A stretch of 64,000 bases of DNA from Pseudomonadota bacterium (GTDB taxonomy: Bacteria; Pseudomonadota; Gammaproteobacteria; Burkholderiales; Rhodocyclaceae), in the NCBI GenBank assembly GCA_018261895.1, contig JAGTRT010000023.1, forward strand, positions 1 to 64,000, read 5' to 3'. The translations under genes and the position numbers were made by a program. Positions within the stretch are counted from its first letter, which is position 1; the number at the start of each line of letters is the position of its first letter. Below are positions 4,885 through 10,451 of this stretch, in pieces. A model generated the notes under the pieces. It was given only the letters and a program-made list of their open reading frames with translations. It did not search any database and had not been told where the DNA came from.

Positions 4885-4918
4885 ACATTTCCATTTTGCG
4901 CAAAATTTCCGGTTGACC

Positions 4919-6737: not shown

Positions 6738-7355
6738 ATGACCCGAGACACCCTGAACGCCACGCTGGCCGCCATCGTCGTCGCGGCGTTGATCGTCTCC
6801 GGCATCGCCCCGTTCGACCGGGCGACATGGATCATGGAAGTCGCCCCCGTGCTCATCGCCCTGCCGATCATGGTCGCCACGCGCAAAAGGTATCCGCTCA
6901 CCACGCTGCTCACCGTGCTCATCGCCGCCCACGCCCTCGTCCTCATCGGCGGCGGCGCCTACTCGTATGCCCGCGTGCCGCTCGGTTTCTGGATGCAGGA
7001 CCTGCTCGGCACCGTGCGCAACCCCTACGACAAGCTCGGCCACTTCATGCAGGGCTTCGTCCCGGCCATGGTCGCGCGCGAAATCCTCATCCGCGGCGGC
7101 TACGTCGTCGGCCGCCGGATGACCGGCTTCCTCTGCATCTGCATCGCCATGGCCATCAGCGCCAGCTACGAACTCATCGAATGGGCCGCCGCCCTCGCCA
7201 TGGGCCAGGGCGCCGACGAATTCCTCGGCACCCAGGGCGACCAATGGGACACCCAGTCCGACATGTTCATGGCCCTGATCGGTTCAAGCACCGCCATGCT
7301 CCTGCTCGCCGGCTGGCACGACCGCCAGCTCAAGGCACTCAACCCCCGACCCTGA
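6738..7355 (+). CDS. DUF2238/YjdF-family membrane protein
   Basis: Multiple TM segments, DKLGHFMQGFVPAMVAREIL, GDQWDTQSDMFMALIGS. Confidence 0.7.
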   Translation: MTRDTLNATLAAIVVAALIVSGIAPFDRATWIMEVAPVLIALPIMVATRKRYPLTTLLTVLIAAHALVLIGGGAYSYARVPLGFWMQDLLGTVRNPYDKLGHFMQGFVPAMVAREILIRGGYVVGRRMTGFLCICIAMAISASYELIEWAAALAMGQGADEFLGTQGDQWDTQSDMFMALIGSSTAMLLLAGWHDRQLKALNPRP

Positions 7356-7432
7356 TTTCAAATTTGGGCAAAATTTCCGGTTGACCGTGCAATCCCACGG
7401 TCAACCGGAAAAAATGGCCAAAATCGAAATTT
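7354..7432. repeat. inverted pair of the dispersed ~35-bp repeat (REPIN/MITE-like)
   Basis: gatttcaaatttgggcaaaatttccggttgaccgt - gcaatccc - acggtcaaccggaaaaaatggccaaaatcgaaatt: two inverted copies around an 8-bp spacer. Confidence 0.85.
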
Positions 7433-7652
7433 GCAGCGCGCAGGGAAAGCCAAGCGGCGGAAAATGACATTGCAATTTCAGCGGAAAATTCATACTGTCC
7501 GGTTTGTCGCCCGAAAATTGTCGAAAATATGCAAGCAACCGCCCAGAACCACTGCCACACAATCAACTCCGCCTGTCCTGTCCGCCAGCTTATGGGACAG
7601 GTTTCCGGATTAGGCGACAGTTTTGTCGTCTACTACTAGTTAGGCGCTTTCA

Positions 7653-8054
7653 ATGTCCGGGCTGATTGAAGTTTCGGTTGTTGCTGTTGCAGCTTTCGCA
7701 ATCGGTGCTGTCGTTGAGAGAGTTCGCCTGCGTAACTACTGGCGTCGCACATGCACTGGGTTTGCGTGGCGGCGTCACTTTCCGAATGCACGAAAAGAAG
7801 ATATACGTTTGTTCTTAGGGCTATTCACGGAAGCCTTTGCATTTCCTGATTCACGTCGTCTTTGCTTTGCTCCAGCCGACAAACCACTTGATGTCTATAA
7901 GGCTCTGTATCCGTTTCCAAAGTTCATGGCCGATTCAATGGAGCTTGAAACATTTCTTGAAAGCGTTAAAGAGGCCTTTGGCGTTGATCTGCTTCCCGTG
8001 TGGCGGGAGGACGTGACTTTGGGTGAGCTATATGCCAAAGCTACCCGCGCCTAA
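7653..8054 (+). CDS. integron cassette protein of unknown function (133 aa, N-terminal TM)
   Basis: ORF starts 8 bp after GTTAGGC; stop codon TAA lies in the GCCTAAC box of the following attC. Confidence 0.75.
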   Translation: MSGLIEVSVVAVAAFAIGAVVERVRLRNYWRRTCTGFAWRRHFPNARKEDIRLFLGLFTEAFAFPDSRRLCFAPADKPLDVYKALYPFPKFMADSMELETFLESVKEAFGVDLLPVWREDVTLGELYAKATRA

Positions 8055-8120
8055 CAATCCGGTCCAGCGGACCGTCAAAAAGCTACGCTTTTTGCCGTCC
8101 GCTGACCTTCCACGTTAGGC
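8049..8120 (+). repeat. attC site 1 (72 bp)
   Basis: GCCTAAC...GTTAGGC ends; inner arms GGTCCAGCGGAC / GTCCGCTGACC complementary with one unpaired base; terminal AAAAAGC-TAC-GCTTTTT hairpin. Confidence 0.92.
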
Positions 8121-8124
8121 ACAT

Positions 8125-8424
8125 ATGAAAATCTGGCCCGGTCAAACTGAAGACTTCAAGCCTCCTCTCCTGTCGCCCAAGGAGAAAGGAAATCTGTGGT
8201 TGGGTCTTGCTGGCATCTTTTTCGTTGGTTCGGCCACTTCATATTTTTATCCGTCAGCCACGCCCTCTACCGGTCGCTGGGCATGGCTCCACAATATCTT
8301 TTTCAATCAATTTGGCCCATCGGGAGACTTTGTCCTTTTTCTAGTGCTGGGCTGTGTGGGCGTTCTAGCCGCGCTCAAGCAGTATTCCGCTTACTCAAGC
8401 GAAAAAGGCGGCACTAATGCGTAG
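8125..8424 (+). CDS. integron cassette small membrane protein (99 aa), unknown function
   Basis: ATG 5 bp after attC1; two predicted TM helices (LWLGLAGIFFVGSATSYFY, FVLFLVLGCVGVLAAL). Confidence 0.72.
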   Translation: MKIWPGQTEDFKPPLLSPKEKGNLWLGLAGIFFVGSATSYFYPSATPSTGRWAWLHNIFFNQFGPSGDFVLFLVLGCVGVLAALKQYSAYSSEKGGTNA

Positions 8425-8433
8425 CCCAGCATT

Positions 8434-8514
8434 GCCTAACAATGCGGTCAAAGGCGCTCCCTTCGGTCGCTGGACGTCCCGCAAGCGGGCCGCCCTTTAC
8501 CTACAACGTTAGGC
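8434..8514 (+). repeat. attC site 2 (81 bp)
   Basis: GCCTAACAATGCGGTCAAAGG...CCCGCAAGCGGG...CCTTTACCTACAACGTTAGGC. Confidence 0.9.
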
Positions 8515-8519
8515 ACCTC

Positions 8520-8810
8520 ATGGGCTCGCTAGTAGCATTCATTGCCGTATTTGCTCTGTCCTACGTAAATGGAGTTTGGATGGTTCGCCATCTTCAAAAA
8601 GTTCATCCAGCCGTATCAGCCCAGCTTGGCAAGCCAACACTTACGCAAAGCAATATTGGGGCGCCACGCTTAGCATTAACAAAGTTTGTTTGGTCGCTTC
8701 AATTTCGCTCGCTTAACGACCCGGTGCTCTCTTTGAGTTGTGTAGTCGCTATGCTTAGCGAGGTCGCTATTCTTTGCATCGTCATTGCCGTTCTGGCCGG
8801 AAAACCATGA
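8520..8810 (+). CDS. integron cassette small membrane protein (96 aa), unknown function; its 3' attC is missing
   Basis: ATG 6 bp after attC2; TM helices at both ends (LVAFIAVFALSYVNGVW, VVAMLSEVAILCIVIAVLAG). Confidence 0.7.
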   Translation: MGSLVAFIAVFALSYVNGVWMVRHLQKVHPAVSAQLGKPTLTQSNIGAPRLALTKFVWSLQFRSLNDPVLSLSCVVAMLSEVAILCIVIAVLAGKP

Positions 8811-8828
8811 GTATGTTTCCCAATCCAG

Positions 8829-8880
8829 TGACCGTGCAATCCCACGGTCAACCGGAAAAAACGCCCAAAATTCAAATTTT
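8829..8880. repeat. dispersed repeat copy with truncated inverted partner
   Basis: tgaccgtgcaatcccacggtcaaccggaaaaaacgcccaaaattcaaatttt; same spacer as the 7354 pair. Confidence 0.85.
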
Positions 8881-10451
8881 CAGGGCGGTCGGGTCGGCGC
8901 GCATGAGGCGTTTGTTCATCTTGCCGACGCTGGTCTTGACCAGGGTTTTCACGAAACTAACCTGCAACAGCACGCCGTAGCGCGACACGCCGGCGGCCTC
9001 GATGGCGTGGGCGGCGTAGTTGCGCATGGCGTGTTCGGTGATCTGGCCGACGAATTCCGGTTTGAGCAGGACGAGGGCGAGCGGGCGTTCGCCCCATTTG
9101 TCGTCGGGGACGCCGATGACGGCGACTTCATGCACGGCCTCGTGTTTGGCGATGATGTCTTCGAGTTGCAGTGACGACGTCCATTCGCCGCCGGTCTTGA
9201 TGACGTCCTTGATGCGGTCGGTGACCTTGAGGCAGCCGGCCGGGTTGATGTTACCGATGTCGGCGGTGTGCAGGTAGCCGCCGGCCCACAGGTCTTCCGA
9301 GGCCTCGGGCGCGGAGACGTAGCCCTGGGTGAGCCAGGGCGCGCGCACGACGACTTCGCCGGTCGCCTTGCCGTCGTGGGCGACGTCGGCCATCTCGGGA
9401 TCAACGATGCGCAGGTCGACGAGCGGCAGGGGCCGCCCGGTCTTGGCACGAATGACGGCCTGTTCCTCGAGCGAACGATTGAGGTCGGCGCTGTCGAGGT
9501 GGGCCAGGCTGAGCACCGGGCAGGTTTCCGACATGCCGTAGCCGGTGAACAGGTCCATGCCGCGCTTCTGGGCGGAAATGGCCATGCCATGTGCAGGATG
9601 GTTGGCACGCAATGCGAGAAGCTGACGCCTTCCTCGGCAATCAGCCGGCAGATCACGTCGGGCTGGTAACGGCCGGGGTAGACCTGCTTGACGCCCATCA
9701 TCGTCGCCAGGTACGGGAAGCCCCAGGCATGGACGTGGAACATCGGCGTCATCGGCATATACACGTCTTCGCGGTGGATGTGGCCCTGGGCGTTGGCGCC
9801 GCCGAGCGCCGCGGCGCAGCCCAGCGTGTGCAGCACGAGCTGGCGATGGCTGAAATAGACGCCCTTCGGGTTGCCGGTCGTGCCGGTCGTGTAGAAGGTC
9901 GTCGCCTGCGCGTTTTCGTCGAAATCGGGGAAGTCGTAGGCGGGCGATGCCTCGGCCAGCATGGCCTCGTACTCGGCGGCCATCGTGACCGGCACAGCGG
10001 GCATCTCGGCCTCATCGGTGAAGAGCACGAAGGTCCTGACCGTTTCCAGCGCCGGCGCAATCTGCGCGAGGATAGGGAAGAATTCGCTGTTGACCAGCAG
10101 CACGTCGGCCTTGGCGTGGTTCAGCGTGTACAGGATCTGCTCCGGGCTCAGGCGGATATTCACCGTCTGCAGGATCGCCCCCATCATCGGCACGGCGAAG
10201 AAGCATTCGAGGTAGCGATGGCTGTCCCAGTCCATCATCGCCACGGTCTGCCCGGCCTCGACGCCCAGCCCGGCCAGGCCGTTGGCCAGCCGGCCGATGC
10301 GCTCGTTGAGCGTGCGGTAGTTGTAGCGCAACCTGCCTTGGTACGTGATTTCCTGTTCCGGCGCGATGGCCAGCGGCGTCAGCAACAGCTGCTTGATGAG
10401 CAGCGGATATTGATAGGCCGACGCCGTGGACTGGACGAGTTTGACTGGCAT
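8872..10451 (-). pseudogene. long-chain fatty-acid--CoA ligase (AMP-binding), disrupted by an internal deletion/frameshift near 9583-9592
   Basis: N-terminal frame ends VSFSHCVPTILHM; C-terminal frame resumes at GMAISAQKRGMDLFTGYGMSETCPVL; the roughly 30-residue stretch normally between these motifs is absent. Confidence 0.75.

Follow-up and report, generated by a model that had tools for sequence, protein, structure and literature searches.

The window, a 64,000-nucleotide stretch of DNA from an Azonexus/Dechloromonas-type bacterium, probably contains an integrase-less ('orphan') integron platform and its array, made up of a REP-like repeat, a leader, an attI site, two complete cassettes and one truncated cassette (probability about 0.7). 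On sequence grounds, the locus has attI and attC but no local intI, the same block is present at further loci and also in additional species, and relatives have empty sites at the window locus. The platform is one of three in the source genome (G000), a MAG that is 85% complete.

The array and its attI

The roughly 210 bp that separate the left repeat from cassette 1 terminate in attI (Table 1), where the exchange point is expected at G7639|T7640. This attI is related to those adjoining intI in three genomes (G008, G006 and G010) and to the one at a decayed-intI site on contig C82 of the source genome. A strict sigma-70 promoter scan of the leader found nothing, and the leader sequence was absent from the plasmids searched. 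Both attC match a model built from the attC sites of the window and of related integrons, a model that includes these two. That of cassette 1 folds far better than shuffled sequence (z -7.1); the folding signal of the second is weak (z -1.5). The genome has just three exact matches to the core pattern CTAAC...CGTTAGGC, two of them in the window array. The third cassette had been described as missing its 3' attC, and no attC was found after its ORF. Pfam gave no family for any of the three cassette proteins, none of them has relatives in any other fetched locus, and an Rfam search returned nothing credible. On the right flank, the acyl-CoA ligase gene is apparently frameshifted near 9590-9612, either by an assembly error or as a pseudogene.

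Table 1. Coordinates of the array, its repeats and the flanking genes within the window.
Feature	Position	Strand	Details
DUF2238 membrane protein gene, left flank	6738..7355	+	Pfam PF09997, E 1.4e-55
Older repeat arm	7355..7389	-	Same place after DUF2238 in L178, L179, L180, L182, L183 and L203, without array
Repeat opening the repeat-leader-attI block	7391..7430	+	Core ACGGTCAACCGGAAA (7397); identically placed with respect to attI in 12 orphan sites
Leader, putative cassette promoter region	7431..7577	+	Conserved TTGCAATTTC (7470) and TACTGTCCGGTTTG (7493) in aligned leaders
attI	7578..7645	+	Model R1, E 9.2e-22; R1 training includes this very sequence
Cassette 1	7640..8114	+	ORF 7653-8054, 133 aa; attC 8049-8120
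Cassette 2	8115..8508	+	ORF 8125-8424, 99 aa; attC 8434-8514
Cassette 3, 3' truncated	8509..8828	+	ORF 8520-8810, 96 aa; no attC
Right repeat	8829..8877	+	Repeat pair minus its left arm, lost upstream of TGACC
Acyl-CoA ligase gene, right flank	8872..10451	-	Two overlapping reading frames; one frame in L041

Compared with a complete integron, the window array has attI and lacks intI beside it. It falls within the definition of a CALIN (at least two attC, no intI nearby), but unlike other CALINs it possesses a dedicated attI and a conserved leader, both of which are repeated at several loci. None of the genome's intI matches lies on the window contig (C31), and the only intI found in the source genome is the decayed one. 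This gene (G000:C82:84599-85239, locus L096) is accompanied by attI and by attC sites that run to the contig end, and the array ending contig C24 (L097) may be the continuation of the same integron. We left the C24 array uncounted as an orphan platform, as its 5' end is at the contig edge and it is possibly the tail of the C82 integron.

Orphan attI sites and empty sites in relatives

We searched a sequence-only attI model against 77 genomes of the genus and obtained matches in 40 of them, several with 2-5 sites. A separate search for sequence related to the window attI gave two further intI-less copies in the source genome, on C45 (87%) and C84 (76%). An intI stood beside attI in 10/52 fetched loci, and 42/52 had no adjacent intI. 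For 41 of these 42 orphan loci, at least 1.5 kb upstream could be inspected. attC on the same strand followed within 3 kb downstream in 29/42, and none of the attC matches tabulated for the orphan loci lay upstream or on the opposite strand. A same-strand repeat was present 179-195 bp upstream of attI in 12 of the 42 orphans, from eight species, and at that distance in 0/10 of the intI-linked sites. Some of these 12 represent the same locus across species, so there are about six independent repeat-linked loci: one, next to BrkB, is a single locus in G000, G058, G062 and G073, and a second multi-species locus, with its left flank in common, is found in G005, G052, G062 and G090. A second type of leader, without the repeat, is found in G078 (which has five orphan attI sites), G049, G081, G064, G083 and others. 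Its members at L150-L155, L166, L167, L147 and L095 form a separate orphan-leader family with the common block GGCCAACTGCTGC...CATTGCATGAATG...AGTACAATGG...CTGTCCGGTTTC and no REP-like repeat.

Most genomes with orphan attI have an intact intI of some lineage elsewhere, and the lineage that adjoins window-type attI is intact in G008, G057, G064, G073 and G076; we infer that an integrase acts in trans on the orphan sites. Several genomes (G053, G066, G081, G083 and G014) have no intI above threshold despite their orphan attI, so some orphan arrays may be fossils. The window array could instead be a complete integron whose intI was lost in place, given that decayed intI genes are known in the genus and that attI and a short motif (CTGTCCGGTT) are common to orphan and intI-linked leaders. 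However, nothing else is common to the two kinds of leader, the orphan leaders having the repeat and no LexA box; the identical intI-less layout is found at non-orthologous loci; and relatives have no integron of any kind at the window locus. We consider loss in place very unlikely.

At the window locus, attI and attC were absent from every relative (80 loci). The gap between the two genes is 68 bp in Azonexus hydrophilus and 67 bp in A. fungiphilus, each with one palindrome, and 28 bp in a Dechloromonas aromatica MAG. In the six closest relatives, only a minus-strand repeat arm follows DUF2238; because these keep the minus arm alone, the minus arm predates the array, whereas the block brought the plus arm (7391-7430) with it. 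The left copy, previously described as a full inverted pair (7355-7389/7396-7430), does have arms that are 83% complementary and a very stable fold (z = -8.3), but it appears to be a composite of the old minus arm and the block's own plus arm. The relatives come close to the empty site that the preliminary description asked for, but they point to an older repeat to which the block was joined and not to a bracket that arrived whole.

In a tree of 14 leaders, the three from the source genome form one group (bootstrap 93), and the BrkB copy of this genome is orthologous in position to the BrkB copies of other species. This grouping points to copying inside the lineage, or else to sequence exchanged among the copies. 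The window leader and its nearest copy are no more than 82-87% identical, so the insertion event is not recent.

Repeats on either side of the array

The preliminary description had the array bracketed by direct repeat copies at about 7382 and 8830, and this was correct: TGACCGTGCAATCCCACGGTCAACCGGAAAAAA (33 nt) is found in identical, same-orientation copies at 7382-7414 and 8829-8861. The match reaches 59 nt at 90% identity, with differences at 6/26 nt past the identical stretch. Whole-genome repeat statistics were obtained by pattern searches, in which GACCGTGCAATCCCACGGTCAACCGG had exactly two occurrences (7383 and 8830). The repeat unit (40 nt, roughly AATCYCACGGTCAACCGGAAAWWWTGSCCAAAATYGAAAT) is dispersed through the genome, with 277+282 (about 559) copies of the core in 3.3 Mb and 0 for the reversed control. 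From this density (about 1 per 5.9 kb), we estimated the chance of a second same-strand copy within 1.5 kb at about 12%. As the family is so numerous, bracketing by itself proves little. We gave no weight to the presence of a right-hand repeat as evidence. Members of the family are mostly single, with weak dyad symmetry only, and the genome has inverted pairs at just about seven distinct places. Given this rarity, independent origins are unlikely for two copies that derive from pairs, have the same loop and lie 1.4 kb from each other. The left and right copies are probably more closely related to each other than to the remaining family.

As had been noted, the right copy lacks its left arm. 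It breaks at AGTGACC as against GGTTGACC, about 1 nt from the GTT core of the arm, and GTT is the triplet where integron integrases exchange strands. A second such junction was found in G058, where the order is BrkB, repeat, leader, attI, one cassette and attC, followed within at most 10 bp by a plus-strand repeat and then gene rg. There, the attC end reads ...CTCTAC|GTTAACCAAGCCTCCCACGGTCAACC, an exact fusion to the repeat arm at GTT. The same place in G076, G053 and G062 reads ...TTTCCG or TTTTCG|GTTAACCAGGCTT..., with an intact repeat pair. With these orthologous pairs intact, the join of the G058 array falls at the GTT of the arm. When 2.3 Mb of fetched loci, duplicates included, were scanned by pattern, only two repeat pairs were broken at that point (window and G058), and the remaining flagged sites were not repeat pairs. 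The junctions fit an integron integrase inserting or deleting DNA at a repeat arm, though two cases are few and that of the window is imperfect.

Two further accounts of the flanking repeats were weighed. First, they could be ordinary intergenic repeats, the left one inherited with the leader and the right one already in the gap, both unrelated to the arrival of the array. The 559 copies in the genome are in keeping with this, as are the rg-side repeat, which is also found in genomes without attI next to rg (G002, G076 and G090), and the right repeats at other loci, which lie in either orientation. The rare loop common to both window copies argues the other way, as does the break at GTT (about 1 nt off in the window) together with the exact fusion in G058, and we regard this account as possible but doubtful. 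Second, a homologous crossover between repeats could have brought in a segment or circle with repeat, leader, attI and cassettes at the plus arm of a resident pair, leaving direct repeats. While this is consistent with the identity of the direct copies over their common core, with the older repeat already at the site and with the many partners that dense repeats provide, the right copy retains TGACCGTGC of the left arm. A molecule coming in would therefore have to possess that pair structure as well, and the C45 copy is without TGACCGTGC. We judge a crossover of this kind unlikely.

The preliminary description had proposed a possible mobilisation unit bracketed by the two direct repeats; taken as a transposable unit with these repeats as its ends, it would be moved by a RAYT or an IS200/IS605-like enzyme. 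The repeat-attI spacing is indeed fixed in 12 sites, and a same-orientation right repeat is also found at C84, at BrkB in three species and at C24. However, we found no Y1/RAYT transposase gene in the source genome (at its 85% completeness) and no Y1 transposase gene in the complete genome G053, and the 13 Y1 loci of relatives have no repeat, save for weak copies in G058; on these grounds we rejected RAYT as the mover. In addition, the family is ubiquitous, and the rg-side repeat occurs without attI. In the source genome, the right repeat is direct at C31, C45, C84 and C24. At three other loci (L140, L141 and L161) it is inverted, which led us to drop the rule that both repeats always point the same way. 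It is thus improbable that the two repeats mark the ends of a mobile unit. A search for target-site duplications gave no clean duplication, the flanks sharing only the repeat. What stands of the proposed insertion at a repeat is a derived array beside an older repeat; the two copies themselves are not clean target duplications. Taken together, the comparisons partly support a repeat-bracketed mobilisation unit, and a role for the repeats in array movement is possible. At locus L281 (G058:C119), two imperfect repeat cores lie 180-350 bp upstream of a RAYT-like gene (about 250 aa), the sole candidate partner found for the repeat family.

Possible origin and comparison with known systems

In the reading that we prefer, an orphan platform with its own array, an integron integrase acting in trans would have exchanged cassettes at the window attI, the genome's cognate intI having decayed. 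The repeat-leader-attI block would have been copied within the lineage and joined to the older repeat at the DUF2238 end, and the right copy would be the remainder of the target repeat pair. The leading candidates for movement of the block are an integrase acting at the GTTRACC core of a pair arm and homologous recombination between repeats. More tentatively, and with considerable doubt, the block may be a non-autonomous satellite of chromosomal integrons that spreads within Azonexus/Dechloromonas genomes, docks at pair arms whose GTTRACC core would be a secondary integrase site, and collects cassettes by means of a trans integrase. If so, one genome would get several separate cassette platforms. 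Integrase-less arrays are usually viewed as debris, or as cassettes dispersed over secondary sites. If arrays at several loci retain a full attI together with a conserved leader, they would be additional docks, possibly usable, served in trans, and some of the numerous integrase-less arrays could have originated in this way; docking of the attG type would also become testable at a defined, repeated target.

A limited literature search found no description of multi-copy, repeat-linked attI platforms. Conserved CALIN loci are described in Xanthomonas (PMC12444791). In the Shewanella prophage M16-3 (PMC9892861), a CALIN that has an attI to itself lies next to a complete integron within one element; as in the window, attI heads an integrase-less array, but M16-3 is a single phage case, whereas the window type is multi-copy, chromosomal and repeat-linked in several species. 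In Acinetobacter johnsonii XBB1, a 439-bp MITE is reported at both ends of a class 1 integron (PMC3934969), likewise placing cassettes between two copies of one repeat. By contrast, the window repeat is 40 nt long and ubiquitous, has no transposase found for it, and is variable in orientation at the array end. The insertion of cassettes at attG sites (Loot et al, 2024, as relayed in PMC12444791 and PMC12901181) resembles our case in having an array/chromosome junction at GTT outside any attI or attC. It differs in that our candidate site is part of a dispersed repeat and that attI is present in our array. Relative to the attG-type G|TT, the junction is exact in G058 and one base off in the window.

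The repeat resembles REP/REPIN elements (PMC8266576) in being short, dispersed, palindromic and partly paired. It differs in that the genome has no RAYT, there is no GTAG 5' of the hairpin, and single units have weak dyad symmetry; of the features of REP/REPIN with RAYT, dispersed copies and some inverted pairs are present and a Y1 gene is absent. Further REP-like copies, some weak, lie in the window at 4903, 14013, 23700, 24534, 31609, 40469, 49888, 58248 and 62443. The repeat core is also contained in a recurring cassette of about 280 bp (L138:5580-5862(-), L091:3499-3780(-), L144:5859-6140, L271:3189-3463 and, in part, L145:5291-5428), found in arrays of several species at 74-82% identity and apparently with no gene of note; here, the repeat itself is now cassette cargo.
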